Source of the DNA: a virus
IMG/VR virus record: IMGVR_UViG_3300032331_002826
Location: 1-64,000 of that record
Reading direction: 5' to 3' (one strand)
Length of the DNA: 64,000 nt
The notes below the pieces were generated by a model. That model was given only the letters and a program-made list of their open reading frames with translations, was not told the origin of the DNA and made no database searches. The translations under genes and the position numbers were made by a program. Positions 1 through 58,743 of this stretch are shown here, one piece after another. The number at the start of each line of letters is the position of its first letter. The first letter of the stretch is position 1.

Positions 1-500
1 CCACTTGATCCACTTGAACCACTTGTTCCTGCACTTCCACTTGATCCACTTGAACCACTTGTTCCTGCACTTCCACTTGATCCACTTGAACCACTTGTTC
101 CTGCACTTCCACTTGATCCGCTTGATCCAGCAGTTCCACTTGATCCGCTTGATCCAGCAGTTCCACTTGATCCGCTTGATCCAGCACTTCCACTTGAACC
201 CGATGTGCCACTTGATCCGCTTGATCCGCTTGTACCAGCACTTCCGCTTGTTCCAGCTGCACCCGGATCTCCTTGCACACCACTTGTACCAGCACTTCCA
301 CTTGATCCACTTGATCCACTTGTACCAGCAGTTCCACTTGAACCACTTGTACCAGAACTTCCACTTGTACCACTTGATCCGCTTGTACCAGCACTTCCAC
401 TTGAACCACTTGTTCCAGCACTACCACTTGATCCACTTGATCCTGATGTTCCACTTGAACCGCTTGTACCAGCACTTCCACTTGATCCGCTATTGCCTGA
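1..500 (-). repeat. Tandem Gly-Ser-rich coding repeats (collagen-like)
   Basis: Three perfect 36-base units lie at 1-36, 37-72 and 73-108, followed by three 27-base units from 109 to about 189 and then mixed units to about 500. Read on the minus strand in the frame of the gene starting at 737 they encode Gly-X-Y triplets such as GSS, GSA and GTS. The repeat is coding and continues past the window edge. Confidence 0.9.
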
Positions 501-6201: not shown

Positions 6202-6714
6202 TTAGAAATTTACGTAAAATGAACATTGTGGACCGCTATATTTGAATCCTGTAATAGGAACTTTGATTTTTAATCCTTCACGAATATGTGAAAAACTTCC
6301 CTTCTTAACATAAGCAAGAGTCATGTGGGGATGATAGTCTGGATACGAATCCTCATTTGGATACTTATCACATCTATTTCGAATCTCCATAAGTTGATCA
6401 TTCTTTTCAACGTCGAATTTTACCACGTCATATTTTTCGTTGTTGAATTGAGTCAATGATTTTAACACCACCTCAAATGGTTTCATGTGTTTCAAAATGC
6501 GTGCAACATCTCGCTTCTGTAAGTCAGGAATAAATCCATACTTAAGAGTAACATGAGGTTCTTCGCTGTATCCATATGTAGGATCTTCTGGATCCGTGTA
6601 AAGTATCTCAGGGGGAATTACCGTTTTTCCCAATTTGACAATATGGGGTCCGTAAGTAGGACTCACTCTGGCCATCAGACATCCCTTTTCTACAAATCTA
6701 TTTTCGGTCAACAT
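6202..6714 (-). CDS. 2H phosphoesterase superfamily protein (possible Acb1-like nuclease)
   Basis: A 170-residue protein with two H-x-T motifs, H54-V-T56 (PHVTLKY) and H130-M-T132 (HPHMTLAYV), separated by 76 residues. This is the defining pair of 2H phosphoesterases, which act on 2'-5' or 3'-5' linkages and cyclic phosphates. The size and spacing are close to T4 57B/Acb1, the phage enzyme that destroys CBASS cyclic nucleotide signals. tRNA- or ADP-ribose-related cyclic phosphodiesterase activity is an alternative. It lies in a late-type operon just upstream of the GP88-family gene. The family call is firm; the substrate is inference. Confidence 0.75.
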   Translation of the reverse strand: MLTENRFVEKGCLMARVSPTYGPHIVKLGKTVIPPEILYTDPEDPTYGYSEEPHVTLKYGFIPDLQKRDVARILKHMKPFEVVLKSLTQFNNEKYDVVKFDVEKNDQLMEIRNRCDKYPNEDSYPDYHPHMTLAYVKKGSFSHIREGLKIKVPITGFKYSGPQCSFYVNF

Positions 6715-6715
6715 A

Positions 6716-7324
6716 TTACCAATATCTCCCCTTGCTGTGTGTACCTAAACTTTTAATTCGATGACTTCTACAACTCCAATATCCTGCAGTTGTGCGATCT
6801 TTTTTCTGACTACATTTGTGTCTAGCTCTAAAACTCTTTCTACGAGCAGCACTGCTAGCACGGATCCTCATTTTAGGATCTCCAAACGATACCTTCTTTA
6901 TAGTACCCTTCTTGGTTTTAACATATACAGCAAACTTCTTTGCTCCGCCCGAAGTCCTAAAAGGACGATTTAGATGTACGGTACGACCTCGATGTTTGAC
7001 TTCATGGAGATGATCTTCATCTTCTTCCAATGGCGCATCCAAAAATACTTCTCTACCTTCGTATATCGCAGTTTGACCTATGTCACTTTCAATCAAATCA
7101 AGATCATCATCGTTGATTTCGATCAAATCCTTTTCATACAAATCACGAACTTCACTGATAAGTTCAAAATACTTCTCTGAATAAGCACGAAAAACATTTT
7201 CAGTCAAAGACAATCCTTTATCCAAATGAAATTTAAGATCGTTTGAAACAACCGTTGTGACAGTTAATTTCATAGGACTTACGACGTAATCGTCCCCAGC
7301 TAGTAAATTTGCCAGTTTTATCAT
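6716..7324 (-). CDS. Conserved basic phage protein, 202 aa
   Basis: The N-terminal half is acidic (EINDDDLDLIESDIG; LEEDEDHLHEV). The C-terminal half is strongly basic, with KKVSFGDPKMRIR followed by RRKSFRARHKCSQKKDRTT and YWSCRSHRIK. I know the C-terminal module (KFAVYV to YWSCR) from many T4-like phages, often in head-region proteins, but not its function. The conserved Cys/His residues (H-x-C and C) could bind metal. The stop is 1 base before the next gene's ATG, so translation is probably coupled with the 2H phosphoesterase. Confidence 0.65.
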   Translation of the reverse strand: MIKLANLLAGDDYVVSPMKLTVTTVVSNDLKFHLDKGLSLTENVFRAYSEKYFELISEVRDLYEKDLIEINDDDLDLIESDIGQTAIYEGREVFLDAPLEEDEDHLHEVKHRGRTVHLNRPFRTSGGAKKFAVYVKTKKGTIKKVSFGDPKMRIRASSAARRKSFRARHKCSQKKDRTTAGYWSCRSHRIKSLGTHSKGRYW

Positions 7325-31141: not shown

Positions 31142-33493
31142 TCACACGTCCCATTTAATCAAAAAATTTAGAGGGTATTCACCGCTGTTCTTCACCGGAG
31201 ATGAAAGTTTAGCCACAGCAACCAAGTCTGTACCCGAATACAAACCAATTGTAGTAACATACGGTGCCAAATAAGATCCAGTCACATCAAGCGAGGAACT
31301 ATATCCATATTCAGAAAATACACTCTTTTGAGTAGGAACCCCATCAGTATTAGCATATTTGGATGTCAATGTAGTCAAATATGCAACGCCATCAGATAGT
31401 GTCTTTCTAGTAGAAAATGGATTGATTAATCTCTGATAACTATCTGTATCAAGCCCCGCCACAAAGTATTTCCAAAGTATTTTGGCATCATTGATCGTAA
31501 TTTTTCCATCGCCATCAAAATCGAATTTCGATTCAAGAGAACGTAGAACGGAGATATACTGTTGATACTCAACCTTCAAAGTGAATCTACCGTAATCATA
31601 TCTATTTTTGTAATACTCAAACAAACTTCTCTCAGTTTGAGTTTCAATTACATATTCGTCCCAAAAAGTATCGTCAGTAGCAAAGTTTGGACTTCCAGGT
31701 GTATTGATATCCACGATGTACAAAAGAATCAAATTGATGTCTCTGAATGTAAATTCTCCGCTTCCGTGTAAATCAAAGATAGGATCTACAAGATCCAATG
31801 CAGTATAGTTTGTACTTACATTGAACTCGCCAGGACTAACCGTACAGATTATTGATTTTTCATTTAACGTATAATATCCACGATAGTTCAAGTCATACTT
31901 GAACTCTTGAGTATCATTCGTTTTTAACATGTTAGTAAATTGAGATCCCGTGTTAGAAAACACAATCTCGCCATTTCTATAAAACACATTACCAGCGTGA
32001 TAATCAGTTCTAATAGAATCAAGTGAAGAAATGTATACGTGACCTTTTACGTTAACCAAATCTGATTGTTGAATAGGAAGAGTAAAAGTGTTACTAGAGG
32101 TTGCGTCAGTCAATATAAACGGCGCACCCATCAATATGGCTTTCTCACTAATAGCAACATCATATCCATATGTCAAATACGGATATCTATACTGTTTTTT
32201 CTTGTTGTCGTAAGTTACCGTATTAACTAAAGATCCGGATCTCTCAAAATACACGAATTGACCAAGGACCACGGGAAAATCATCATATGATTCATTCAAC
32301 GAAGACGAGATACTAGATGTAGTATATCCATAACTGGAAGAAATACATCCAGCAATAATCTTTCCGTCATATACACCAACCGAACACCCTAGTTGATTTC
32401 CTTTGATCGAATTTTCATCTCCAATATATTTTTCTTCGAGATCCCAATAGGATTCTGAAATATCGTTGTAAACACTAGAAGTTGTGTTTGTTGTAAATGT
32501 GTAATCAGATGGACAATCTGTTCTTCCGTAAATGTACACAGCACCCTTTGAATATTGTGTTGACGATCCAGAATATTCGTAGTACGAAGAATCAAGAGGA
32601 GCACCAATTACAATTGTCCGACCATCAATCGATATGCTTTTTCCAAATTGGTCGTAGGGATTTTTGACATAATTGTATGATTCAAACTGATCAAATGGTA
32701 CATTTTTTGAGCCTGTAATTGATGAAAATACATGCGTTTTGTTCCACCCACCAGATGAACTTTCATAGAGATATACATTTGGATTCTCCAAAGAAGAACT
32801 TTCTGCAATCAATATGTTATTCGTCCCAGAATGATCAATTTTTACTTGGGAACCAAAAAACTTACCAGCGGTATCTCCAAGAATATGTTGTACCAGAGAA
32901 TAAGAAAATACCGATCCAGTTGTATAACTGTAAATGTAAATTCCTCCCTCTTGAGATCCACCTTCCTCATTTGCACCTACTACAATGTACTTGTTATTAA
33001 CAGAAACCGATGTACCGAAAGAATTTTTTGACGTTGATATAGGAGAATTGATCTTGCGAACCGAATACATGGTCTGTCCTAGCGTGGATGACACAGAAGA
33101 GGTTTCATTCAGAACATACACATCTACAAGACTCTTGTGAGAATATGGATTTCCATCATAACTTCCTGAGAAAAATGGATCGCCGACAATGAAAATGTTG
33201 TTGTGTAAAGCAAATGACAAACCATATGAATCCGCAACCACCGTTGCACTGCTTCCCGCTGTTCCTGCCGTTCCATTTCCCGACGTTCCACTCGATCCAT
33301 TTGCTTTGATCGATTGTGATGTTCCGTAATAAGAATATGCTCCTTTAGACGCATCATAACGATACACATCAATACTACCAGATCCGTGTTGATTCTGATA
33401 TTGTCTATTTGGATTACCTACCGCAGCAAACTTTCCGTGAGCTTCTACCTTGTACCCAAATAGTGTATTTGATCCTATAGTTCCTGTGGGCAT
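31142..33493 (-). CDS. Beta-propeller (FG-GAP-like) tail protein with dockerin-like pair, 783 aa
   Basis: Residues about 1-500 repeat a propeller-blade pattern: GYKVEAHGKFAAVGNPNRQY, YGLSFALHNNIFIVGDPFF, GTSVSVNNKYIVVGANEEGG and GKSISIDGRTIVIGAPLD. Residues about 573-592 (FDLHGSGEFTFRDINLILLY) and 657-676 (FDFDGDGKITINDAKILWKY) are two Ca-loop-plus-helix repeats like type I dockerins. The C-terminus (TIGLYSGTDLVAVAKLSSPV) matches the C-terminus of the 428-residue protein at 33990, so both probably plug into the same baseplate site. The likely role is a peripheral baseplate or fibre-attachment protein. Confidence 0.65.
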   Translation of the reverse strand: MPTGTIGSNTLFGYKVEAHGKFAAVGNPNRQYQNQHGSGSIDVYRYDASKGAYSYYGTSQSIKANGSSGTSGNGTAGTAGSSATVVADSYGLSFALHNNIFIVGDPFFSGSYDGNPYSHKSLVDVYVLNETSSVSSTLGQTMYSVRKINSPISTSKNSFGTSVSVNNKYIVVGANEEGGSQEGGIYIYSYTTGSVFSYSLVQHILGDTAGKFFGSQVKIDHSGTNNILIAESSSLENPNVYLYESSSGGWNKTHVFSSITGSKNVPFDQFESYNYVKNPYDQFGKSISIDGRTIVIGAPLDSSYYEYSGSSTQYSKGAVYIYGRTDCPSDYTFTTNTTSSVYNDISESYWDLEEKYIGDENSIKGNQLGCSVGVYDGKIIAGCISSSYGYTTSSISSSLNESYDDFPVVLGQFVYFERSGSLVNTVTYDNKKKQYRYPYLTYGYDVAISEKAILMGAPFILTDATSSNTFTLPIQQSDLVNVKGHVYISSLDSIRTDYHAGNVFYRNGEIVFSNTGSQFTNMLKTNDTQEFKYDLNYRGYYTLNEKSIICTVSPGEFNVSTNYTALDLVDPIFDLHGSGEFTFRDINLILLYIVDINTPGSPNFATDDTFWDEYVIETQTERSLFEYYKNRYDYGRFTLKVEYQQYISVLRSLESKFDFDGDGKITINDAKILWKYFVAGLDTDSYQRLINPFSTRKTLSDGVAYLTTLTSKYANTDGVPTQKSVFSEYGYSSSLDVTGSYLAPYVTTIGLYSGTDLVAVAKLSSPVKNSGEYPLNFLIKWDV

Positions 33494-33989: not shown

Positions 33990-35276
33990 TTAGAAGTCTA
34001 GTCGTACTTTGACCAACAATTCGTTAGTGAAGGTCTTTTGTGCCGGATTGCTCAATTTGGCCACAGCAACCAACTCATTGTTGCTGTTGTAAAGTCCGAC
34101 ACTGGTTGGATACACCTTAGGTTCCGTCAAAAAGTCAGTCTGAATGATATCACCTTTTTGATGGAAATTTCCACTTGTATCGGTTGTAGCCGTCTGATAT
34201 GAGAATGTAGGATTGTTTGTATAATTAAACTCTCTGTTTTTTACACGTACAAAATAGTGACGAGATGGAACATATTCAGATCTGCGAATTCTCAACTTTT
34301 CTCCAGCAACACAGTCAGTAGAAATTAGCATTTGGTATACCGCTGTTTTTATATTATTATTTTTATTGATTAAAGCGTCGGCGGTAGGATCATATGCTCT
34401 ATAATTTCCGGAACCGGCACCTACTGCATCTGATAGTATGGGAATCGCAATCCCTACAGGCCCACTATTAGAAATCACACTCAAAAAATCAACATTGAAT
34501 ATAACCACACCCGATTTTGGATAAAATAGTCCGATTCCGCCAGAGTAAGATCCTACTGCCGGATAATACTGAGCTTGAGACGATGTTCCTACGTAGTGTT
34601 GTGCAGATGTCAATCCGCCGTTCGTTGTTCCCGGACCGGATGCACTTGAAGACCAATATGTAGCTGTTCCATTTGAATCATATTCACCCAATACCAAATT
34701 GTATACATCAGATGATCCGCTTTGTGGAGTCAAGGTGGAATCATCAATGATTCTCCAAAGTTTAGGTGTACCTCCGGATCCACTAGTTTGAAGAGTCAAC
34801 TGAAATTGACCCGCGTCAAGAGTATCTTTGGTTTTTTGCGAATTGAAAGATAGGGCAACAAAATCTGTACTCAGCGATACAGAAGATACAGTTCCATTTA
34901 CAGAAGATTGAGATTTAACCGAAAAAGACTGTCCTCCGTTCAATTCGTTTACATACTGTCTCCAAACTGCCTGAGTAGGATGAACTTGAACATTTGTATA
35001 TTCATCTGCACTGGTACCATATCCATTTACGTTTCCATATGCGATGCTGAAAATTTGATCAGCGGAAGTAGTGTCGGCTGAATCTGGAAACACATCCAAA
35101 TAGTAATATCCATTATAGATGTCGAATCTATTTGATCCTGATATTGTCTCTTGGGTACTGCTAGATACAAACGAACTTTGCAACGTAGTCAATGCGCCGT
35201 CAGCAAAGAATCCGGTAGATACCTTTGTTGCTCTTCCCGATACAATGTCGGCCTGTTCAAATGCTTTGTAAATCAT
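33990..35276 (-). CDS. Baseplate-associated structural protein, 428 aa
   Basis: A 428-residue beta-rich protein. Its C-terminus (SVGLYNSNNELVAVAKLSNP and ELLVKVRLDF) is shared with the end of the 783-residue propeller protein. The N-terminal helix (MIYKAFEQADIVSGRATKVS) and the segment VQVHPTQAVWRQYVNELNGG are typical of a conserved marine-phage baseplate protein. No enzyme motif is seen. It is co-transcribed with the neighbouring tail genes. Attachment of fibres to the baseplate wedge is inferred. Confidence 0.6.
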   Translation of the reverse strand: MIYKAFEQADIVSGRATKVSTGFFADGALTTLQSSFVSSSTQETISGSNRFDIYNGYYYLDVFPDSADTTSADQIFSIAYGNVNGYGTSADEYTNVQVHPTQAVWRQYVNELNGGQSFSVKSQSSVNGTVSSVSLSTDFVALSFNSQKTKDTLDAGQFQLTLQTSGSGGTPKLWRIIDDSTLTPQSGSSDVYNLVLGEYDSNGTATYWSSSASGPGTTNGGLTSAQHYVGTSSQAQYYPAVGSYSGGIGLFYPKSGVVIFNVDFLSVISNSGPVGIAIPILSDAVGAGSGNYRAYDPTADALINKNNNIKTAVYQMLISTDCVAGEKLRIRRSEYVPSRHYFVRVKNREFNYTNNPTFSYQTATTDTSGNFHQKGDIIQTDFLTEPKVYPTSVGLYNSNNELVAVAKLSNPAQKTFTNELLVKVRLDF

Positions 35277-35963: not shown

Positions 35964-38900
35964 TTAACGTACCGTCAAAACACCATTGTTGTTTGTAACG
36001 ATAGAAGTGTTGGTCACAATAGTGCTTACAATCGGACTTGTTTTATCTGGATCTCCACAGTGATCCACCGTGTAATCGCTGGTCTGACCATTTCTCTTGA
36101 ACACACCATAATGAGTGCCGTCTCCCGACAAAATTTTCACCGAATCAGATGTAAATACATTGTTTCTATGACCCAAATAGTTTTTTGTACAGCCAGGGTT
36201 AGGCGTTCCAATAGAAGCGTATGTTGAATATGCACTTATTGGCGTAGCAATGATCTTTTGAAAAGTTTTATAGTAATGATGAACTTGATCGTCAACATCA
36301 TATGATTCAACCGATGCGCTATATGGTATGCTCCAAATATAGTATGGAAGTGAACGTGTATTGTTGATATAATTTTGCGATGGATCAGTTACTTTAAAAT
36401 CCAAATATGTAATGTACAATCCAGAGCCATTGTTTTCTCCACACAAAATCAACTCTTGATCGGTACTAACATCTGAAATGTAATTTCCACCAAAATTGTT
36501 GTTTAGACCAATTGTGTCAGAATATGGGTTTGCCTGAATTCCAGGTTTATCCACAAACTTGTCAAGGGTTCCTACGACATCAGGATTGTAATACTGATCA
36601 TTACGCCAAATGGATATGTTCTCTGCGTCGTTGGTATTTACTATATCAGAATAAGTGACATCGGTTTCTACCAATTCCATATTGATTGGTTTCAACGGAA
36701 ACTTGGTTCTCTCCAAAATCGTTGGTTCAATCAAAATACCTGTCAACAATTTGTTTCTGGCAGCAATAACATTTCGGATAGATTCGAAAATGCTAGAATC
36801 AAAATAGACTTTGTATATCGTTGTAAACTCTTGATAAAGCAATCGTCCTGTACTTGGAGGATCTCCTGCTTCATAGTATGTACTTCTATACAAATCAAGT
36901 GGAGAATAACTTTGAGAAAATTCTAGTCTTGGATCTCCCAATTCGTTGATGATTGTCTTATCACCAAAAAATTGAAGTATGTCTGCATTTTTGCTAGACA
37001 CGGGCGATGCAAACACACCTACCAAATTGGAATCCACGTTTTTATTGTATGGTGTGGATTTTTGAAATGGAGTTATAGATGTAACATCAGATTTTTCTTT
37101 TACTGAAATCTTGTTGTTCCACAATAGATTTGGCCCGTAGTTAGAAATTCTGTACGCTTGATTTACCGTGTATTCCAAGAAATTGTATGGGAACTGTGAA
37201 GGAACTTCTCCCAAACAAAGACTTGAATATGGATACAACGAACTTGTATCATAGGTTCCACCATATGTTTTACGAGCCTCTATTGTATCTTGATAAAGGT
37301 AAGGATTATCCGTGACTGCATTATTCGTTATACTAGAATCGGTTGACACCGATTGTATATTGTACAAATGTGCAGTTCCGCTCGAGCCGTATGTGAACGA
37401 TTCATCGACGGTGTTCAGTGGTCTTGGATAATCATATGCCAATCGGAAGAACAAATTGTTTCTTATGTTGGCGTAGTCATCTTGATAATATGAATCAAAA
37501 TTGTTAGTATGTTCGACGAAATTATCATCGGACAATGGAATTGTCCATACATTGATTTTGTCAATTGATCCACTAAACTGATTTGATCCGAACTTCAAAT
37601 AAGAGTCTACATCATCGGCAAAAAGATCATTCTGATCCGAACCGAACAATCCAGATGTTTTAGAATGTAGACGTGATTGTCCTTCCTCAGTAATATCAAC
37701 TAGAAGATCGTATTGAGTTGGAACTAGGTTTTCGTCAATGTTTGATGTGTATAGTGAAGATGGAGTATTTTTTCTGATCATCACGCTGTACACACTACCG
37801 TCAAACAAAGGCAACATTTTCGATGAGATGTACTGATCTCCTATTTGGAAAATGATTTTACCGTTGTTGTTTAACGACTGTTTATACGCGTAAACTCGAT
37901 AATCCAAACTTGACGTATGTGAATATTTCTCAAGCAGATTGATCTCAGCTTGGAGATTATACGATTTGCTGTATAGGTTACTAAACGCAATTTTGAACTC
38001 TACTGTATTAACTGACGATGTGTATGGCATCGTGATATATGAACTTTGATTCATACTCAATAGATGCAATGTTTTATCGAAGGTGTAGAGAGATTGAGAC
38101 ACATCAGAGTAAGATCCAAACTCTCTTACAGTCAAAATGTTTTCTGGTACACCGTAACATGAAAGAATTAGCTTGACCGATTCAATTGTTCCTTTTGATT
38201 TCAATATCGCAGGAAGCGTATTCAAAATACGATTATTGATTATGTTAGCTTTATCTGATATTGACGATACGGCGGTGGAGTTAATGTAGTTAGCAGACAA
38301 TGTTGTATCATTAACCAAAGACTGCATGTTCCAACCAAACGATGACAACATACCATCAAGAATGTTGTTTGGAATAAGTTTTTCCAATCCACCCGAATTG
38401 TAAGTCAATAGAGGGAACTTATCAATGTACACATAAATGTTGTCGAAATGATGTCCAATCATTGACAAAAAAATCAAAAACTCGTCGTTAGCTGAATCAA
38501 CAAGAATATATTCAGGCAAATTGTTGATCAAACTGTCTCTGTTGTTTGAATCGTATTCCCCCGCTTCATCTTCATATGATTTTGGAAATATTTCGAGGTT
38601 ATTGTAAAAGTCATTGGTGTACAAGTAATACTCATATCCATCAAATGACAACAAGATATCATTAATTTCAGATTGAAGACTATTGGATTTACTAACCGTG
38701 TATACGTCTGAGTATGACACGGAATCTATTTGAGCTTTTGCTGCAAGCTTAGAATTCAAGGAATTAAGCTTGTTCTTGTAAATTGTAATACGCGTCTTTG
38801 CAGATGAGTACACAACAAAATTTTCAAACTTAGTATAATCAACATTGATTGTTGAAAATCTCTTTTTCAATACCACATCGACACTTGATGAATCATCGAT

Positions 38901-40211
38901 ATCACTTGTGTCGTTTAGATTAACAGTAGAAGATGTTCTTTTATCATTAACCTTAAGATTGAAATTTGCGTTTTTGATGTTGAACGTATTGTATGTAGGC
39001 AACGACTCCAATACGACATCCTGTACCACCGGCGCAAGTGATGTATTTGTTATCCAAAATGTGTTATTTACACCAAATGTGTTTGGTAACTGATTTTGAA
39101 GTTTGATAACCAAACTTCCATCGGAAAATTTCTTACTTGATAGGATCTTGAAAAATGTATTGTCGCCAAAATTGATCGAATTTTTCAACGGACCAACGTA
39201 TTTGGTGGAGTAATCATAATTCACCGCATTCAGGTATCCCTGAATTTGACTGTTGAAAACACTGAACAAATACGTGTTGCAAACTTCGCTGTCGGTGTTT
39301 TGAATGTCGTGAATAGACTTCAATCGAAGATTAATGGTCTCCGATACAATTGACTCCAATATTTTAGAATATTCTTCGTAGCTAAAACAATTATTGTAGT
39401 TTTCATACAACATCAACATGATGTGTGATGAAATACCAATGAAAGTTTGGTTTTTAGAAACACCATTTTCAGAACTTGCAACCAATTGATATCCATTAAA
39501 AATACCATTGAAAAGTTCATACAAAGCATCAGATCCCGTAACAGAATATCCTTTGCTGAACGACTGTTTTACGTTATCCGGAATGACGTTTACAAAATTA
39601 AGGATGTACGTTTGTTTTAGATATGACTCGAAATCTGGCAGAATATCTCTAGACTCAATTTTTCCACTGACAAAGCAATCAAACTCACTTTGAAGGTTTG
39701 CTTTATCTACATTGGTGAAATTCTCTTTATCAAGCAATAGCGTTGCTTTTATTTCTCTTCTCGATGGTGATACTTGTTTAATGAGAAAGCATTGCTTGTC
39801 ATATGATCCAACAATGTTGGATTGGAAATTGTACACCAATCTATAACTTCCGCCGGATAGACCTAAATTTTGAAGGTCCGTTTTTGGATCCAACAAAATC
39901 TTACTGTTTTCATACAACGTGAAACTAGGAACAAATTCACGATACGTAACCGTGTTCGTATTATTTTTAGAGTCCTGATATTGAACTTGACGATCTTTAT
40001 ATGTTGGTAGTTGTACAATTGGAACCCACTTGTTCAAATTGTCTTGACTGTCAAATATGGATAATTCAATGTAGTCGTCTTCCTGCGATCCAAAAAACTT
40101 CTCGGACGAAACCGGAGTCTTCTTCATCAACGATGAAATATCCGTTGGAAGATACGAAGCATAATTAACACGGTTCGTGTAATTTGTTACCGTTGGAAAT
40201 GGAATTGCCAT
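35964..40211 (-). CDS. Very large baseplate/tail structural protein, 1415 aa
   Basis: The largest gene of the window. It is Asn/Ser/Tyr-rich, with mixed alpha/beta content and no membrane segment. The N-terminus (MAIPFPTVTNYTNRVNYASY) is followed by a long helical region. A probable LamG/lectin-like part (about 720-930) contains FKIAFSNLYSKSYNLQAEIN, QIGDQYISSKMLPLFDGSVY and GSIDKINVWTIPLSDDNFVE, the usual strand order of concanavalin-like folds. It could occupy the role of T4 gp7 (1032 aa, wedge scaffold) by size and position after gp6-like, but I see no gp7 signature. Confidence 0.55.
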   Translation of the reverse strand: MAIPFPTVTNYTNRVNYASYLPTDISSLMKKTPVSSEKFFGSQEDDYIELSIFDSQDNLNKWVPIVQLPTYKDRQVQYQDSKNNTNTVTYREFVPSFTLYENSKILLDPKTDLQNLGLSGGSYRLVYNFQSNIVGSYDKQCFLIKQVSPSRREIKATLLLDKENFTNVDKANLQSEFDCFVSGKIESRDILPDFESYLKQTYILNFVNVIPDNVKQSFSKGYSVTGSDALYELFNGIFNGYQLVASSENGVSKNQTFIGISSHIMLMLYENYNNCFSYEEYSKILESIVSETINLRLKSIHDIQNTDSEVCNTYLFSVFNSQIQGYLNAVNYDYSTKYVGPLKNSINFGDNTFFKILSSKKFSDGSLVIKLQNQLPNTFGVNNTFWITNTSLAPVVQDVVLESLPTYNTFNIKNANFNLKVNDKRTSSTVNLNDTSDIDDSSSVDVVLKKRFSTINVDYTKFENFVVYSSAKTRITIYKNKLNSLNSKLAAKAQIDSVSYSDVYTVSKSNSLQSEINDILLSFDGYEYYLYTNDFYNNLEIFPKSYEDEAGEYDSNNRDSLINNLPEYILVDSANDEFLIFLSMIGHHFDNIYVYIDKFPLLTYNSGGLEKLIPNNILDGMLSSFGWNMQSLVNDTTLSANYINSTAVSSISDKANIINNRILNTLPAILKSKGTIESVKLILSCYGVPENILTVREFGSYSDVSQSLYTFDKTLHLLSMNQSSYITMPYTSSVNTVEFKIAFSNLYSKSYNLQAEINLLEKYSHTSSLDYRVYAYKQSLNNNGKIIFQIGDQYISSKMLPLFDGSVYSVMIRKNTPSSLYTSNIDENLVPTQYDLLVDITEEGQSRLHSKTSGLFGSDQNDLFADDVDSYLKFGSNQFSGSIDKINVWTIPLSDDNFVEHTNNFDSYYQDDYANIRNNLFFRLAYDYPRPLNTVDESFTYGSSGTAHLYNIQSVSTDSSITNNAVTDNPYLYQDTIEARKTYGGTYDTSSLYPYSSLCLGEVPSQFPYNFLEYTVNQAYRISNYGPNLLWNNKISVKEKSDVTSITPFQKSTPYNKNVDSNLVGVFASPVSSKNADILQFFGDKTIINELGDPRLEFSQSYSPLDLYRSTYYEAGDPPSTGRLLYQEFTTIYKVYFDSSIFESIRNVIAARNKLLTGILIEPTILERTKFPLKPINMELVETDVTYSDIVNTNDAENISIWRNDQYYNPDVVGTLDKFVDKPGIQANPYSDTIGLNNNFGGNYISDVSTDQELILCGENNGSGLYITYLDFKVTDPSQNYINNTRSLPYYIWSIPYSASVESYDVDDQVHHYYKTFQKIIATPISAYSTYASIGTPNPGCTKNYLGHRNNVFTSDSVKILSGDGTHYGVFKRNGQTSDYTVDHCGDPDKTSPIVSTIVTNTSIVTNNNGVLTVR

Positions 40212-40214
40212 ATG

Positions 40215-42287
40215 TTAAAATTTCTTTGCGAGGAACGATTGATTTCTGTTTATTGCATTGTGTCCGATGATATTCGTACCCATCACATATCTTTGGTTAT
40301 CAACATTCATGTGCATATATTGATCATCACGTAGATAATTAACGCTATTGACCTTTACATTTGTTCCTTCTGTGGTTTTAACAAAGTCTCCTGCCTTGAT
40401 ATCTGTAACTTTGACCCATTGGTCATTTCCCAGATACCATTTATGGGAATGGTCAACATCAAACACTTGTCCGTCAATGTCCACTCTATAAATAGGTGCC
40501 ACATCAATATAAGCGACGTTAACTCTATTCCAAACGCCAGGAACCGAGTCTCTTAAATGCATTCCTACCGTTATATGTCTCGCTTCTACTACTCCCAGTT
40601 CTTTAGTTTCCATCAATTGCCATACAGCAGGACACCCACCTCCGCCTTCACCCGTTGTGGTTGGAACAGAAGAAACAGGACATTTCAACTGGTATAGTTC
40701 AAATGAGTAACTGCCCTCACCACCTTTTGAATCGAATATGTCAACGATTGCGGTGTAATCGTTGGATACACTTGGTTGTTGTGAAAGGGTAACACTTGAA
40801 CGCCCTTGCAATATCTTCAATGTCAATTGAGGGTTAATTTGATCCAACCCATCATTAAAGAACAGAGATTTCTTTTGAATGTCGCCGTGATTTTTTTCAT
40901 TACTATACGAAGCTGACTGGCCTTTTATTGTGATTTTCAACGTATGATCAATATTTCCTACGAAACTATAAACCTTGGTAGGCACAGGATTATCACATCC
41001 TTGTTTAGGTGAAACAGTCGGTGAAACCGGTTGTGCAGCATACGATGTCATTGACAAATTACCACTACACTCTTGATAGTCTTTAGCGTTATAAGCCATT
41101 CTCGAATTCCATACAACTCGTCCATTATAAATGATGGAAGCAGCGACGGAATGTGGACCACCCCAATTTTTATAGAATAGATTGACGTTCTTCCAACCAG
41201 CTGTGAGAGTTTTGGTCGTAGCATGATCACCCAAATATGCCTCTACTTGACTTGCATATGGAGAAGAACTATTTATGTCAGACAAATCAATCAGTTTAAC
41301 ACCATCCATGTCGATGTATCCAGCATTATCAGCAGAGAACTTAATAGTGTAACTTCCATCTGTTGGAATGTATACCTGATACGGGAGGGTATCTGAGGTT
41401 TCCCGTTCATACGTTTCAGATACCTTTTCACTATACACGCCGTAGGTATTAATCATTGGACTAGTCTGTAGACCAAGACTTTCCCACACGCCTTTATACT
41501 TTCCATACTTGTAAAACAGTTCTTTACAAGAGGTCTGTGGCGCAGCTACAGCAGCAACAGCCATTTGATGTATTGGTAATTGAACGGGAGCCGGAGGAGG
41601 AGTAACAATAGTTATCGGAGTAGGAAAAACTGGAACCGGACCTTTAATAACAAGATCGGTTGGTGGTATAATTTGAAGATCTTGTTGTACGGGACAAATA
41701 TCTCCCTGTACTAATGTCTGTGTCACTGATGTTCCCACTTTTGCGGTAGAAGACATGGACGTATCTGATGTTGACTGATTTACATTAGTTGAAGATGATG
41801 TTGTCTGCGTCGATGGTGTTGTCTGTTGAGTGGGCGACGAATTGATTCCTGATGAATCTGATGCTTTTGCAGCAGCAGAGAATAGAGGGAGATATGGAAA
41901 TGCAGTATTAAAATCAGACGGAATAGATCCTTCTCCTGCTTTTATTCTTAGAGATACAATAACATTTCTACTAGCATTGATAAGAGTATCTTTTTCAGAC
42001 GGATTTACAGATTGTAAACGTGTAGTTAAATCTGAAATTTGTTTTTGAAGATTTGTCTTTTCAGATTCAAGCGATGCCACTTTTTGGTTCGGTGCAGATG
42101 ATACTTCTTTAAACTCCTCTATCTCAATGTTGTACACCGATGACAACGACTGTTGTTCATACACTTCTGGATTTAAAATAACCGAAAGATATTTGTCTGA
42201 ACCTTCAACTATTATCAAGTTGCCAAATTCATCAAACTCATTCGTATATTCACCTGTACTTGTAAAATTGCTTTGGGTGGCATTCAT
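40215..42287 (-). CDS. Baseplate-cluster protein with C-terminal Hint (intein-like) domain, 690 aa
   Basis: Residues about 60-95 are coiled coil (VASLESEKTNLQKQISDLTT). A Thr/Ser/Gln/Pro-rich linker follows. Residues about 260-420 look PA14-like (LPYQVYIPTDGSYTIKFSAD, GYIDMDGVKLID). The C-terminal 126 residues form a Hint domain: C552 after GGGG, VEARHITVGMHLRD, FDVDHSHKWYL, WVKVTDIKAGDFV, ending IIGHN677 followed by A678. Thirteen residues follow (AINRNQSFLAKKF). Cys at the start and His-Asn at the end are the residues needed for intein-type chemistry; +1 Ala is typical of bacterial intein-like domains. Auto-cleavage or cross-linking of a virion protein is inferred. Confidence 0.75.
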   Translation of the reverse strand: MNATQSNFTSTGEYTNEFDEFGNLIIVEGSDKYLSVILNPEVYEQQSLSSVYNIEIEEFKEVSSAPNQKVASLESEKTNLQKQISDLTTRLQSVNPSEKDTLINASRNVIVSLRIKAGEGSIPSDFNTAFPYLPLFSAAAKASDSSGINSSPTQQTTPSTQTTSSSTNVNQSTSDTSMSSTAKVGTSVTQTLVQGDICPVQQDLQIIPPTDLVIKGPVPVFPTPITIVTPPPAPVQLPIHQMAVAAVAAPQTSCKELFYKYGKYKGVWESLGLQTSPMINTYGVYSEKVSETYERETSDTLPYQVYIPTDGSYTIKFSADNAGYIDMDGVKLIDLSDINSSSPYASQVEAYLGDHATTKTLTAGWKNVNLFYKNWGGPHSVAASIIYNGRVVWNSRMAYNAKDYQECSGNLSMTSYAAQPVSPTVSPKQGCDNPVPTKVYSFVGNIDHTLKITIKGQSASYSNEKNHGDIQKKSLFFNDGLDQINPQLTLKILQGRSSVTLSQQPSVSNDYTAIVDIFDSKGGEGSYSFELYQLKCPVSSVPTTTGEGGGGCPAVWQLMETKELGVVEARHITVGMHLRDSVPGVWNRVNVAYIDVAPIYRVDIDGQVFDVDHSHKWYLGNDQWVKVTDIKAGDFVKTTEGTNVKVNSVNYLRDDQYMHMNVDNQRYVMGTNIIGHNAINRNQSFLAKKF

Positions 42288-44740
42288 TATCGAACTACTT
42301 TGAAATAAGTATTGTTGTCAATCACCTCGACAGCTCCATCTATCTCGGTTTTAATGAGAATCTTGAAATATCTTTCTTGTGGAAGACCCGTCATATCCAA
42401 CATAAAGTAGTTACCATTTGAATCACAACTCAATTTTGTTCCTTCATCAAAGTCAATTACAACTTCTTCGGTTTCGGTGTCTTTTATCGAATAGTAAGTT
42501 TCAACAGGAAGATATTTTGGAGTCAATTGTGATGTCTGCTGTGTTGCTTTAGTAAAATTCTTCAGCGGAAACTTTTCTCTAGCAAAAACATTCACTCTAA
42601 CAATACTGTTGTGTTTATATTCCTTCTTTATGTTTTTCAAAGTAACAATAAACGGAATATTACCATCAATCGGTTCCAAAGAATCGGTGACAAATTCTGA
42701 GTCATCCCATGTTATATCCAAACATGGAGTATAAATTGTATTTGTCTCTTTACTATAGAATCCCAATGCACCATTAGAAAGTGTACTCAACTCCTCTGAA
42801 GTCAATAGAATAATTCCCTCATTAGGAATACATCCGCTTATCCAAGATTTTACAATTGGAGTCACGTCCATTTTAATATCAGATGACTCATATGAAAAAC
42901 TTTGTGACATTATCAACGAACTTCCTGTGATCAATGTGTCATAAAATGGAGAATCAAACGACTGTGTTAGACTACCCGATACACTAGATGATGTTTCTGC
43001 CTTTACAACTTCAATTTGTTGATTGATGTAATACAACAAACTTGAAGAGAAATCGTTGGTAGCGCTAGATGTAAACTGAGCGGTCATCAATGACAAAGAA
43101 CTTGTCAACAATGACGGCGACATACTTGCACTTACATAGATCAAATATGGATCTGTAGTACCGAGAGCCTCAGACAAACTAGAAGAGAAATCGGTGTATA
43201 CCGTATTTACATTGATAGCATACAAACTAGCAGATGTGGCGTTCGCAGACCAATCATTCAAAATCGAATATACCTCATCAAATGTAGTCGGATTCAATCC
43301 ATACATACTACTCGAAAGATATACATCATAAGCGTAGGCATTATCAGAATAATAAGCAGCTGAGGATGAATCATTCAGGATCGTCTGAATACTAGAACTC
43401 AAGTGGTTAACAAACAACGTACTTGAACTGTATTCACTTTGGTACAACGAACAAGAACTACATGCAAGTGATGAGGTAGTATTGATTGTTGACAAATAAT
43501 CAGCAATGCTACCCGATGTATTTTCGTATGTAGGTACTGCGATTGATCTCAATAGATCGTTAGCCGCATCAGCATTTTGTTGTGATATAGTCGAGTCGGC
43601 CAACACTGACGCCAAACTTGAAGACAAAATACTGTCAAAACTGGAACTTAAGTTGGAATCTAGACTTGACGAATATTGTTGATCGAATGTAGGAATTGAA
43701 ATCTCTCTAGTATAAAAAGGAGTTTGAACACTAGATGTAGGATTGATAAACGATGATGGAACACTATAACACCATGTTCCTCCGCCATTACGAAACGCTG
43801 TAGATTTGTTTGACTCATTGGTCAAATAGTCAGATAATTGAGTAGTCGGATTGTAAGGATACCACACCTCACCTCCATTTTCATCACGATAGTTCCAACT
43901 TGCACCCAAATCAGTTCCATCATCTGCAAATCTTCCGTCACCCATAGACCAACTTTGACTGATTGGGTAAGCATAGATCGTATAATCAAACGGCAATTCC
44001 GATTGACGCAACACTTTCACTGAAAGAGTAAACTTTGGATCGACGACTTCACCTTTGCTGATCGAACTCGAAATTGAGGTTATATCAAATTTAATCATTG
44101 ATCTCGTCAACACCTGTGAAGAACTCAATGTAAAATGCGGTTCGTAATATTCGTAACTTCCAGATATAGACCCCAACAAAGTTCCCGATACTCCGTTCAA
44201 ACTTCCAGAAAAATTGAATAATAGACCCGTCACACTTCCTGATATTTCTCCTGTTACGGCTGATCCGGACACGCTTCCTGAAAGATGTGTAACACTTCCG
44301 CTTGAATTAGGATCAGATACTACAATCTCATCCGAGTAAGACACTCCGTTAATAGTAGCATCGTAAACATATCCGTTCAAACTTCCTGTAAAGTCTCCGG
44401 TAAAATCTGATGTGACGAAGTTTGAACAACTCATTTCGGCTGGATTAACATACCCAACTACGTTTCCGTTTACAACAGTAACATCTGATGAAGGGTCAGA
44501 TACGATAACGTTTATTGTACTTCCAGAAAAGTAGGCATCACATTGACCTTGAAAGTTTACAACGTTTTCTACAAATACGTTTGATGAACTGACATTGCTA
44601 GACTGATAATATGACACCTTTTGAACGGTGTTAGTCTGTGAAGCGACAGTCAGTATTTCATCAATACCAAAGTTCTTGTTCTCCAAGGTCTTTAGATTGG
44701 TAATATACGTGTCTTTAGATGGAAATAGAAAATGGTGCAT
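42287..44740 (-). CDS. Ser/Gly-rich baseplate-cluster structural protein, 817 aa
   Basis: An 817-residue protein starting MHHFLFPSKDTYITNLKTLE, a DNRLRE-like opening, interrupted at residues about 95-200 by beta-roll-like repeats of the type GDFTGSLNGYVYDATINGVS and SGSVSGSAVTGEISGSVTG. A conserved core continues (ISQSWSMGDGRFADDGTDLG, TGLPQERYFKILIKTEIDG). A second insertion (about 360-620) is Ser-rich with LSSSLASVL-type helices. The inserts look like expansions of a shorter baseplate protein. Its start is 2 bases from the gp6-like stop, and its stop overlaps the next start. Confidence 0.55.
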   Translation of the reverse strand: MHHFLFPSKDTYITNLKTLENKNFGIDEILTVASQTNTVQKVSYYQSSNVSSSNVFVENVVNFQGQCDAYFSGSTINVIVSDPSSDVTVVNGNVVGYVNPAEMSCSNFVTSDFTGDFTGSLNGYVYDATINGVSYSDEIVVSDPNSSGSVTHLSGSVSGSAVTGEISGSVTGLLFNFSGSLNGVSGTLLGSISGSYEYYEPHFTLSSSQVLTRSMIKFDITSISSSISKGEVVDPKFTLSVKVLRQSELPFDYTIYAYPISQSWSMGDGRFADDGTDLGASWNYRDENGGEVWYPYNPTTQLSDYLTNESNKSTAFRNGGGTWCYSVPSSFINPTSSVQTPFYTREISIPTFDQQYSSSLDSNLSSSFDSILSSSLASVLADSTISQQNADAANDLLRSIAVPTYENTSGSIADYLSTINTTSSLACSSCSLYQSEYSSSTLFVNHLSSSIQTILNDSSSAAYYSDNAYAYDVYLSSSMYGLNPTTFDEVYSILNDWSANATSASLYAINVNTVYTDFSSSLSEALGTTDPYLIYVSASMSPSLLTSSLSLMTAQFTSSATNDFSSSLLYYINQQIEVVKAETSSSVSGSLTQSFDSPFYDTLITGSSLIMSQSFSYESSDIKMDVTPIVKSWISGCIPNEGIILLTSEELSTLSNGALGFYSKETNTIYTPCLDITWDDSEFVTDSLEPIDGNIPFIVTLKNIKKEYKHNSIVRVNVFAREKFPLKNFTKATQQTSQLTPKYLPVETYYSIKDTETEEVVIDFDEGTKLSCDSNGNYFMLDMTGLPQERYFKILIKTEIDGAVEVIDNNTYFKVVR

Positions 44741-51099: not shown

Positions 51100-52116
51100 T
51101 CACCTATGTGCAAAATAACGCTTGAAAAAGTCATCTTGTCCTGACTTTTTTGCAGGATCGGGTTTTTCACTGGTCACAGTAATCGTTGGTTCTAGTACAC
51201 TCGATTCGGAAATATTGTTGGACGGTTCAGTTACAATTTCTTTTTCTTCAACCACATCTGATTTTGGTTGAATAACAGGTTCCGGCTTTGGTTGTGGGAT
51301 AGATTCTGGTGCAGTAGCATAAATTGCATATTCTCTGTTGATCGCAACGTTATATGCTAAAACCAATGCCACTGCGAGGGGATCGAATACACATATCAAT
51401 ATCAATATGAACCACTTTGCAACAGTGTTAATACTAACACCGGCAGACTCGGCAACAAATTTGAAGGTCTGAATATCTTTTGCTGAAGATGATGTAAGTT
51501 TAAGTTCGGTAATTTTCTTGTCTACATTATCTATATCAGTAGAATATGATTGAGATTTATCATTTTCCGATTTGATATTTTTGTCTGTTTGATCAATAAG
51601 TTCCATCGTCTGTTCCTGTACCTGACGAAATTGAATTGGATTTCTTGCCAACAGTGAGTTTGTATTAACCTGACTCAATCGATCCTCTTGACTCTTTCTT
51701 AGAGAGGTCAACGACTCAATACGTTTTTTTACATCATCGATCTTTACAAGAGACAATTTCTTCTGATTCTCCAATGACGTAACTTGTTCTTGCATCATTG
51801 TATATTGTATCGAAGACTGTTGATACGCACTTGTCAAGTATCCAAAAACACCTAAAGATGTAATACCCATCAAAACGATGACAGCAATACAAAGGTATGA
51901 TTTTAGTAGAAATTGAGATTTTTTCCAAAATCGATATAGAAATGAGGTAGCAACAAGTTTGCCTAACTCAAGTGAAGATGCCATCACCATTGCAGCAATT
52001 GATGCTCCAGAGAATAATAACCCAATGCCCCATATGGAGAAGAATGCAGCACACCCAGCAATGAATAGTGCTGAAAATCCCAATAGGTTATTGAAATTAA
52101 GAAAGTTCTTGTTCAT
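51100..52116 (-). CDS. Multi-pass membrane protein with coiled coil, 338 aa
   Basis: Hydrophobic segments at about 10-30 (LLGFSALFIAGCAAFFSIWG), 33-55 (FSGASIAAMVMASSLELGKL), 72-96 (SYLCIAVIVLMGITSLGVFG) and 240-262 (WFILILICVFDPLAVALVLA), with a long coiled coil between the third and fourth (VTSLENQKKLSLVKIDDVKK). The Pro/Glu-rich C-terminus (IPQPKPEPVIQPKSDVVEEK) is probably cytoplasmic. This topology is common in marine T4-like phages without known function. A role at the host membrane is inferred. It follows a terminator and a TATTTATA motif. Confidence 0.65.
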   Translation of the reverse strand: MNKNFLNFNNLLGFSALFIAGCAAFFSIWGIGLLFSGASIAAMVMASSLELGKLVATSFLYRFWKKSQFLLKSYLCIAVIVLMGITSLGVFGYLTSAYQQSSIQYTMMQEQVTSLENQKKLSLVKIDDVKKRIESLTSLRKSQEDRLSQVNTNSLLARNPIQFRQVQEQTMELIDQTDKNIKSENDKSQSYSTDIDNVDKKITELKLTSSSAKDIQTFKFVAESAGVSINTVAKWFILILICVFDPLAVALVLAYNVAINREYAIYATAPESIPQPKPEPVIQPKSDVVEEKEIVTEPSNNISESSVLEPTITVTSEKPDPAKKSGQDDFFKRYFAHR

Positions 52117-52172: not shown

Positions 52173-53471
52173 TCAAACGTCAACGTTCAACTTGTTTTTA
52201 TACGAACCAAGTTCTCTTCCCATTATGTCATACGATTTGACTTCATAATGTAGGTTTTTGTTATCCGCAAGTAGTTGCAAATGAACGTTAAACGAAACTT
52301 TGTCGGGGCGATTCTGCCAGAATCCTATAATTTCCGGACCAAATGTATTCACCTGAATCAATCTATTTCTATCATCATATACAGAAACGGTTAATTTATT
52401 GACCGATTTGTTATTCAATATAGACGGATTCAAATCTATACTTGGAGAAACAGAAATGATGCTTAAAGTGATGGGATCGTGTCCGTCAACATAGTTTTCA
52501 TTGTATGGAGTTGGAGCTAACTTACCTGACAAAGTGTAAATACACACTTCTTTGGTGGAGAATTTAACACCAGCATATCTCTCATATTCACTTAAAGTAC
52601 GAACCTTTCCAAAGTTATATTTGTCAGATATGACAATTGCGTCATCTTGTTCCATTCCAAACAAAACTCGATTTCTCTTTTGTGACTTGATATCACGTTC
52701 CCACCAAGATTGTTTGATTCCTTTGATGTCTTGTTTAGTGAGATCATGATCGTCCCAATGCTTAAACCTGGCAGATCTAGTATATTCATGCCAACACACG
52801 ACTTTGTGTGGATGATACAAATCGTATCCGTGGGTAAATGCTCTTACCGCAATACTGATCTCTTCACCGTAGAAATAAAACTCAGGATCGTGCGGAACCT
52901 CTTCACAGAATTTACCATCAGCAAACGCAAAATGAGCAGAGTAAAATCTCGACGGAACAGGTGTTGTGCAAAACTCATAATCGTTTATTGGAGACGGCAC
53001 AAAGAAAATGGGACCGTCTGAAAGAAACTTATGAAAGTCCATTTTCCACGGAATCAGTTCATATGTACTTTTATCCGCAAATGGATCGAAAGCCGGAATA
53101 TAGGCAGTGATTAAGGGTTTTTCACTGCCCATATTTTGACACTGATTATACATCGTCTTTAGTTCTGTATCCCACCCCTGAACAAATCGATGATGTGAAT
53201 CCAACTGCATCGTATAACGTTGTCCGTTATACCTACGTTGAATTTGATTTCTTGCCCAACACGCGCCTTTACTTTCGTAATATGGAATGTCAATAATTTC
53301 GATATTTGGATACGACTTTAATACATCTAAATTTTCAGAGTCGTCGTGTTGCCAACATATACAAACATGCAACGCTTCGGGATTGTGAGCATTTTCGTAC
53401 ATATCCAAAATGGTTGGCACCAATTCTGGATCTCTGTACGATGCAATTTGTACAAATATCGATTCGTCCAT
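52173..53471 (-). CDS. GlcNAc-type glycosyltransferase, 432 aa
   Basis: The N-terminal 290 residues match the GlcNAc glycosyltransferase family: FVQIASYRDPELVPTILDMY, HVCICWQHDDSENL, KGACWARNQIQRRYNGQRYT, MQLDSHHRFVQGWD (D-x-H-H nucleotide-sugar/metal site) and EISIAVRAFTHGYDLYHPH. Residues 320-432 form an extra beta domain. The likely activity is transfer of an HexNAc-type sugar from a nucleotide sugar to a glycan, a host-surface component or a virion protein. It is the last gene of its unit and is followed by a terminator. Confidence 0.85.
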   Translation of the reverse strand: MDESIFVQIASYRDPELVPTILDMYENAHNPEALHVCICWQHDDSENLDVLKSYPNIEIIDIPYYESKGACWARNQIQRRYNGQRYTMQLDSHHRFVQGWDTELKTMYNQCQNMGSEKPLITAYIPAFDPFADKSTYELIPWKMDFHKFLSDGPIFFVPSPINDYEFCTTPVPSRFYSAHFAFADGKFCEEVPHDPEFYFYGEEISIAVRAFTHGYDLYHPHKVVCWHEYTRSARFKHWDDHDLTKQDIKGIKQSWWERDIKSQKRNRVLFGMEQDDAIVISDKYNFGKVRTLSEYERYAGVKFSTKEVCIYTLSGKLAPTPYNENYVDGHDPITLSIISVSPSIDLNPSILNNKSVNKLTVSVYDDRNRLIQVNTFGPEIIGFWQNRPDKVSFNVHLQLLADNKNLHYEVKSYDIMGRELGSYKNKLNVDV

Positions 53472-56942: not shown

Positions 56943-57367
56943 ATGTCTGTAAATCTATAAGATCCTCCTTCTGGATGAACAACAACGCTTTCATAGTGAA
57001 AACACTGCATCATTTCATACACCGTATTGTATATTGTAACTCCTCCATTTGGAAAGCATGGGTCTCCAACTCTATGAGTTTTGTACAAGTATAGTTTGTA
57101 AAAGTCTGGGTATTTTGCGACCAACACACGTGTGCCTTTTGGAGTGATTTCGTTTACTACGTTGGTTTTGTCAACATTAATAAACACCTCAAAAATGGTT
57201 CCATTTGTACCAATGATCTTAGGTATACTTTTGTAATACCTATTTGATTCATCTGACTCAGTAATCTTCTTCGATTTCTTCTTTACTTTTTTGGCGTCGT
57301 CCGCCGGATCAATAATCTTGGCTTTGATATCATCCAGACGTTCTTTTTGTTTTTTGATTTTTTTCAT
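56939..57367 (-). CDS. Hypothetical protein, 142 aa
   Basis: The first 40 residues are Lys/Asp-rich and disordered (MKKIKKQKERLDDIKAKIID). A compact domain follows: YYKSIPKIIGTNGTIFEVFI and GVTIYNTVYEMMQCFHYESV. No recognised motif. It overlaps by 4 bases both the upstream glycosyltransferase gene and the downstream 91-residue gene, so the three are translated as a coupled set. Confidence 0.55.
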   Translation of the reverse strand: MKKIKKQKERLDDIKAKIIDPADDAKKVKKKSKKITESDESNRYYKSIPKIIGTNGTIFEVFINVDKTNVVNEITPKGTRVLVAKYPDFYKLYLYKTHRVGDPCFPNGGVTIYNTVYEMMQCFHYESVVVHPEGGSYRFTDI

Positions 57368-58683
57368 TTAACTGTTAGCTCGCACAACTTGTTATAGTCA
57401 CTGTTTATCTGATCGAGCATATTCGCAGGAATCAAATCTACACTATCTAACAATCGACGACAAGATTTTTTTGATTCATCATATTTTTTCAAATACATAG
57501 CTGATGTATAATGATAATACAAAGGTTCATAGTTTGTGTCGGGATATGCACATTTGTTTAAGAAAAACTCTCGTTGTTTTTCAACATCAACATGATTGTT
57601 TTGTATGGACAACAATGAGTATAAATACGTCATTTTATGATCCTGTTTTTCAACGTAATATCTACATAAACACAAAAGTCCTTCGTTTCTGGTGTGGTCA
57701 ATCCGATAACTATTTATCAAATATTGAATTCCGTCTTTCTTATCGTCGTAACATCTAAGTATAAGTTCACCCATGTAACAAAAAGCAACATACGCCATTT
57801 CGTTTGTGTATCCCAAAGTTGTGGGAATAGATTCATACATTATTGATAAGTTGGTATCATCTCTTATTCCCATTGTTAATTCTAAATATTTTCTGTAGTA
57901 GAAAATGCTTCTGCGTGCTATTTCTTTTATGTGATCGTCGCCAAACATCATTTTCATATTGGCAAATTTGTGGTCCGATGATCGGTAGTTTTCGAGAAAG
58001 TCATAATAAGACTTTGCAAGATACCAAACATAATAAGCATCATAGGAAAAGTCAGGGTCGTTTCTATCTTTGATAGGAGTTAGAATCAATTGATGTTCAA
58101 GTTCTTTAGCGTCCACATAGAACTTCAAAGGATTAGTAGAACTATGACTTCCTTCTACCATGATGATTCTTAGATTTTTTGACAGATATCCAAGTTTCCA
58201 CTTCTCTCTAGATTTACGTCGAATCAATTCATGTGCTCTGCTTGGAACAAACTCCCAGTCAATTTTAGCATTCAAAATCCAAGGTCTATATACAGATGTG
58301 TCACCAAAACTCGTTTTTGAATGAACATACCATTCATCACAATTAAACAGTTGGTCCCAATCAAAATCGTCGTCCACTTCAAGTCGTTCATCAGCATCAA
58401 CTCGGAGAATATAATCACATCCATGATCCGATTTCAAACACGTTTGAGTTGCATCGTTTCTATTGTGACCATGGCTAACCCACGGAGTATAATACAGAAA
58501 CCCAGGAATGTTCTTCTCTTTGAAAAAACTAGTAATCAACTGTTGAGTTCCATCTGTAGATCCGTTGTCTTGAATAACCCAATAGTCAATGTATTTGTAC
58601 ACGGTTTCAAGCATAGGAATAATGACTTTGGCTTCATTCTTCACCATGATGTTAAATACGATTTTGATTTTATTTTTGGGCAT
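57364..58683 (-). CDS. Glycosyltransferase family 2-type protein
   Basis: ATG 58683 (MPKNKIKIVFNIMVKNEA) is preferred over the upstream in-frame start at 58725, which lies inside the terminator hairpin; this gives 439 residues. The N-terminal GT2 fold shows VKNEAKVIIPMLETVYKYID, QDNGSTDGTQQLI and CDYILRVDADERLEVDDDFD (D-x-D metal/UDP-sugar site). The C-terminal half is helical and TPR-like. Similar to glycosyltransferases of the WaaE/KdtX type that extend lipopolysaccharide cores. Surface glycan modification is inferred, in line with the other sugar genes here. Confidence 0.8.
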   Translation of the reverse strand: MPKNKIKIVFNIMVKNEAKVIIPMLETVYKYIDYWVIQDNGSTDGTQQLITSFFKEKNIPGFLYYTPWVSHGHNRNDATQTCLKSDHGCDYILRVDADERLEVDDDFDWDQLFNCDEWYVHSKTSFGDTSVYRPWILNAKIDWEFVPSRAHELIRRKSREKWKLGYLSKNLRIIMVEGSHSSTNPLKFYVDAKELEHQLILTPIKDRNDPDFSYDAYYVWYLAKSYYDFLENYRSSDHKFANMKMMFGDDHIKEIARRSIFYYRKYLELTMGIRDDTNLSIMYESIPTTLGYTNEMAYVAFCYMGELILRCYDDKKDGIQYLINSYRIDHTRNEGLLCLCRYYVEKQDHKMTYLYSLLSIQNNHVDVEKQREFFLNKCAYPDTNYEPLYYHYTSAMYLKKYDESKKSCRRLLDSVDLIPANMLDQINSDYNKLCELTVK

Positions 58684-58715
58684 AACGATGTTACAGTTAA
58701 CTATATCAGCGCAAA

Positions 58716-58743
58716 GAAAAACCACAAACTTTCATTTGTGGTT
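58716..58743 (-). terminator. Intrinsic terminator before glycosyltransferase gene
   Basis: The stem AACCACAAA / TTTGTGGTT (58735-58743 with 58720-58728) is followed on the minus strand by TTTTCTTTG. It ends the transcript that carries the structured segment 58746-58905. Confidence 0.85.

Follow-up and report, generated by a model that had tools for sequence, protein, structure and literature searches.

The 690-residue virion-type protein encoded at 40215..42287 on the minus strand of the window (the 64,000-nucleotide stretch of viral DNA analysed here, drawn from a 74,203-base virus contig) ends in a Hint domain whose active site looks intact at both junctions, an assignment that is well supported by fold, residue register, invariance and dN/dS. 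From these features we infer a chemistry in which the C-terminal 139 residues probably act as a catalytically competent, A-type-BIL-like Hint domain that processes the adhesin or fibre protein at whose end it lies, and putative autoprocessing at one or both junctions is quite likely. Retention of the full self-cutting machinery thus suggests that the adhesin may trim itself or become welded to another chain after synthesis.

The Hint domain covers residues 552-677 (40257..40634; this and the following features of the protein lie on the minus strand), as delimited by conservation, an AF2 model and structural matches. Its putative N-terminal nucleophile, C552 (Cys1; 40632..40634), is invariant, superposes on residue 1 of inteins and directly follows a Gly-rich junction, G548-G551 (40635..40646), with Gly at positions -1 and -2 in all relatives. 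Likewise invariant are the block B motif D612-x-x-H615 (40443..40454), in which Asp replaces the Thr of TxxH, the block F position 4 residue H659 (40311..40313) and the block G pair H676-N677 (40257..40262). H659 lies 18 residues before the terminal Asn, a position that is His in all relatives and that corresponds to D107 of gp41-1 (replaced by Cys in 6riz) and to His125 of BIL2 (N143 numbering). The first-pass annotation had described a Cys start after GGGG and a terminal GHN followed by Ala, and G548-G551, C552, H676, N677 and A678 indeed read that way. Its D-H-S-H block holds only in part: D610-V611-D612-x-S614-H615 is conserved, but relatives have N, S, D, E or I in place of the first His (613). 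The annotation does not mention the invariant block F His or the penultimate Lys of the tail, the two features with the greatest bearing on mechanism. Trp617 (40437-40439), two residues past the block B His, is also invariant and by residue offset matches the WCT-motif Trp of class-3 inteins, though the family retains Cys1.

Among 15 sequences (13 clusters at 90%, pairwise identity 36-99%), 31 of the 126 Hint columns are invariant, and these include all five classical catalytic positions, Cys1, His615, His659, His676 and Asn677 (hypergeometric P 7e-4). Since the domain occurs in 20 related contigs, keeps these five positions invariant and matches solved Hint folds, the Hint pattern claimed for this ORF is not due to chance. 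In line with this, the domain is 85% identical between the window and its relative L009, compared with 48-68% for the core, linker, PA14 and Ig-like parts. Its dN/dS between the window and L001 is 0.033, compared with 0.08-0.11 in the PA14 and Ig-like parts, the values of more distant pairs being rough because dS is saturated.

The AF2 model of the domain, computed with 15 family members as input, has a pLDDT of 90, and all five models (87-90) agree; it superseded a first model from 12 sequences, which had an open hinge and a poor rmsd. The model matches solved Hint domains with Z 14-18.5 over 121-131 residues, far above the Z 7-8 usual for models that match nothing clearly. Specifically, it aligns with the gp41-1 intein 6riz at Z 18.5 and 1.8 Å over 123 residues (model 1..128 on chain -1..125), and with the BIL domain 2lwy, BUBL BIL2 6y75 and Hedgehog 1at0 at Z 16.6, 16.1 and 15.7, respectively. 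The superposition pairs C552 with Cys1 and N677 with the final Asn of the intein, and C552 (model residue 3) coincides with the first residue of class-3 and RecA inteins and with C258 of Hedgehog. The modelled horseshoe fold with Cys1 and terminal Asn in register thus assigns the domain to the Hint superfamily. Neither Pfam nor NCBIfam yields a significant match within the Hint domain of the window protein. PT-HINT (PF07591) matches several relatives below threshold (best 21.4 bits against a gathering score of 27.7; best E 3.3e-4), and the first PDB match of the family profile is the Clostridium BIL 2lwy (E 5.6e-4, partly in the wrong register), followed by BUBL BIL2 structures covering blocks F-G. 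At the level of sequence, similarity to any known Hint domain is weak.

The 13-residue tail reported after N677 is present: AINRNQSFLAKKF (40218..40256) comprises A678 and 12 further residues, ends in KKF and carries the penultimate K689 at 40221-40223. It has a pLDDT of about 40 in the AF2 model and is predicted to be disordered, and its length varies from 6 to 15 residues among relatives. The penultimate residue is Lys in 15/15 sequences compared with 26/223 other long ORFs, though kinship among the sequences means that they do not count as independent events, and some of the background ORFs are spurious. Because both AAA and AAG encode this Lys and the groups are unlike in the spacing and sequence downstream of it, we rejected a nucleotide signal as the reason for its conservation; it could serve binding or stability instead of chemistry. 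The +1 residue after the Asn is A, G, F or V, and the absence of Cys, Ser or Thr there (0/15) makes canonical splicing unlikely.

The carrier gene lies between genes 42287-44740 and 35964-40211, just downstream of gp25-like and gp6-like baseplate wedge genes, and gp23-, gp20-, gp17-like and SbcC-like (phrog_77, gp46-type) proteins are encoded elsewhere in the window. The carrier sits in a T4-like structural cluster, and the uncultured phage is T4-like. The extent first given for the gene, 40215-41872, spans only the C-terminal part of an ORF of 690 codons. Residues 1-135 (41883..42287) form an N-terminal baseplate core whose orthologue is a 157-residue stand-alone protein in relatives, and about residues 251-410 (41058..41537) form a PA14-like adhesin region (phrog_773, E 2.3e-9). 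The first-pass PA14 assignment corresponds to a Pfam match below the cut-off (20.4 against 24 bits, E 4.7e-4). 'Virion protein' and 'adhesin' are thus provisional labels drawn from synteny and weak domain matches.

Repeated scans of IMG/VR converge on 20 further contigs with the same Hint domain plus one relic. The domain is always C-terminal after Gly-Gly, with one copy in each genome searched and no further copy found in the window genome; tblastn against 50,697 phage records yielded no cultured phage relative. Three carrier types bear it. Type a combines the baseplate core with PA14 and Ig-like parts (the window, L001 and L009); L010 (6798-8417) keeps a window-type core and the Hint domain around a different middle domain (phrog_13374) in place of the PA14/Ig-like part. 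Type b comprises proteins of about 630-790 residues that start with an RLNRSGP-like motif (L011-L025 and L036; L036 resembles a carrier without Hint, but a diverged Hint is present). Type c is a SASYAL-repeat fibre (L044). Types b and c are located between a PhoH-like gene and a homologue of window gene 51100-52116. Immediately upstream of the type-b carrier is a gene whose product ends in Peptidase_S74. Most relatives bear the domain on an adhesin or fibre gene adjoining a Peptidase_S74 fibre gene, compared with a baseplate protein in the window group.

In L056, the window carrier has as its orthologue a 157-residue protein in syntenic position that lacks both PA14 and Hint. Across L056-L059, syntenic tblastn matches cover residues 8-135 of the window carrier at 27-36% identity, and in L057-L059 the match is limited to about residues 8-137. 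The short Hint-less baseplate orthologue, together with the Hint domain on another gene elsewhere, indicates that the domain has changed genes within one phage group. Its location in the fibre or adhesin locus of most relatives further indicates that it goes with the exchangeable adhesin rather than being tied to the baseplate itself. The first-pass proposal of a baseplate maturation step is accordingly right in that a Hint domain with an apparently intact active site is present, but too narrow. In L026, a relic of the C-terminal half of the domain (6503-6727, without a start codon) marks the point where the fibre cassette has been exchanged, with a breakpoint inside Hint and flanks about 87% identical to L013; loss of the gene in so close a relative shows that the Hint domain is dispensable. 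Taken together, the Hint carrier behaves as an exchangeable host-recognition cassette. Transfer of the domain from type-b to type-a phages is not claimed: Hint and marker trees look different by eye, but AU tests (p 0.22-0.23) do not reject agreement.

The proposed action rests on fold, residue register, invariance, purifying selection, carrier exchange and the disordered tail with its conserved Lys, all obtained here; one counterpoint to a competent Hint domain is the change of block B Thr to Asp and of block F Asp to His. C552, assisted by block B H615, would attack the carbonyl of G551 and yield a glycyl thioester on the adhesin. A nucleophile activated by block F H659 would then remove the adhesin from C552, a step that is not normal intein transesterification given Ala, Gly, Phe or Val at +1; the nucleophile could be water, a partner's amine or, from the same or a neighbouring chain, the epsilon-amine of invariant K689. 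Finally, N677 would cyclise with the assistance of H676 and release the tail, which would leave GGGG as the C-terminus of the mature adhesin, either free or joined to a lysine. We take the position of H659 to be the same as that of Hedgehog Asp46. Catalytic Asp46 serves the acceptor as general base and is required for native cholesterolysis but not for thioester formation (PMC13060885), and in Hog-type Hints the acceptor is activated by Asp or His (PMC7765530). BIL2, with its block F His, makes isopeptides between a Gly C-terminus and lysine; its His125 is a zinc ligand, and BIL2 is activated by zinc (PMC8616854). Circumstantially, the tail Lys and the block F His keep transfer to lysine possible beside hydrolysis, and, given processing, a lysine acceptor is a tentative suggestion that we hold at clearly less than even chances. 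The stronger form of this idea, an ATP-free, ubiquitin-like conjugation in virions in which Hint activates the adhesin GGGG as a thioester and transfers it to lysine, is unlikely. The acceptor would be the penultimate tail Lys of the same or a neighbouring subunit, giving a branched or cross-linked adhesin, or alternatively a lysine of another virion protein or of a host surface protein.

Compared with known Hint systems, the domain has the hallmarks of an A-type BIL: Cys1, block B His, terminal His-Asn and no obligatory +1 nucleophile. It resembles the Clostridium thermocellum BIL (2lwy) also in fold and in being housed in variable proteins, but differs from it by its phage adhesin carriers, the 6-15 residue tail with penultimate Lys, the block F His and an identity of only 18%; moreover, no bacterial relatives were found in two scans of an 84,980-species genome collection, which reach only sequences containing the back-translated motifs. 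Gly-Gly before Cys1 and a His 18 residues before the terminal Asn are marks of BUBL BIL2-like ligases that the phage domain bears, and BIL2 of Tetrahymena thermophila (6y75, 6tmm) shares with the phage domain the fold and the lack of standard splicing. BIL2, however, is eukaryotic, flanked by ubiquitin-like domains and 16% identical, and no conserved His was found at the likely place of its second zinc ligand, His48, where the alignment is unsure. Canonical and class-3 mini-inteins (gp41-1, 6qaz/6riz; MchDnaB-1, 6rix) are the best structural matches (Z 18), but the phage domain lacks +1 Cys/Ser/Thr and the block F Cys, has Gly for the G-block Thr and sits at the C-terminus of a non-conserved adhesin. 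By its +1 residue the domain does not qualify as a canonical class-1 intein, nor, with Cys1, a block F His and a G-block Gly, as a class-3 intein. PT-HINT, the pretoxin Hint, is the one Pfam Hint model that matches repeatedly, albeit weakly, but the scores fall short of membership and no effector follows the phage domain; nor is it a Hedgehog Hog domain, with no sterol-recognition region and only 6-15 residues after Hint. Peptidase_S74 chaperone domains (PF13884) are likewise C-terminal modules of virion fibre proteins, here on the neighbouring gene, but have a different fold and chemistry.

This last likeness raises plain self-cleavage without ligation, in which Hint would be a removable C-terminal folding or assembly domain and hydrolysis would free the mature adhesin in an S74-like manner. 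The Peptidase_S74 terminus of the upstream type-b gene, the resemblance of carrier c to a tail fibre, the non-nucleophilic +1 residue and the mostly cleaved products of BIL domains (PMC7664689) all fit such a role; we nevertheless consider it somewhat unlikely, as it leaves unexplained the invariant penultimate Lys in a discarded tail and the conservation of both junctions. A conserved tail end would be expected if a mini-intein near the C-terminus linked adhesin and short tail through a peptide bond. The nearest structural match is a splicing intein (6riz), and some BIL domains without a +1 nucleophile are reported to splice, going by the title of ref. 69 of PMC7765530. Ordinary splicing is quite improbable, however, with A, G, F or V at +1 in every relative and an insertion site in a variable adhesin instead of a conserved active site.

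The block B and block F substitutions would also suit a catalytically inactive Hint that the adhesin keeps for structure or binding, but Cys1, both His residues and the His-Asn pair are invariant down to 36% identity and would be unneeded in a purely structural role, which makes this reading improbable. A selfish, intein-like parasite spreading among virion genes could account for the same domain on unrelated carriers, the degraded copy in L026 and the real inteins elsewhere in one relative (G004). Against it, the domain holds no endonuclease, is always C-terminal and single per genome, and is the part of the gene under the strongest purifying selection; no empty-site allele with a rejoined gene was seen, and we find this explanation hardly credible.

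The fold and the class of chemistry are already known, and there is no new fold here. In the literature searched, which covered few subscription papers, phage Hint domains are inteins in enzymes (such as terminase, helicase or reductase genes), and we came across no Hint domain that, followed by a tail with an invariant Lys, regularly forms the C-terminal module of phage adhesins that are exchanged. Structure databases hold uncultured-phage proteins named Hint, and such domains may have been noticed earlier. If active, the domain we propose would provide a new route to mature or covalently attach receptor-binding proteins. The conserved tail lysine offers a direct and cheap probe of isopeptide chemistry outside Tetrahymena, and the domain may be useful as a compact ligation tool.

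Several further features were observed. The relative G004, a 303,564-base contig (L045, L047-L053), contains several ordinary intein-type matches, some in frames with in-frame stops near 278-280 kb. Adjacent structural proteins encoded at 31142-33493 and 33990-35276 of the window (minus strand) have the C-terminal motif GLY...LVAVAKLS.P...L.(I/V)K in common, which also terminates a protein of Microcystis phage Mel-JY01 and is perhaps a common attachment element. Additionally, two glycosyltransferase-like genes (52173-53471 and 57364-58725, minus strand) lie in or near the fibre locus, and the first of them is present as a fused double copy in L056.
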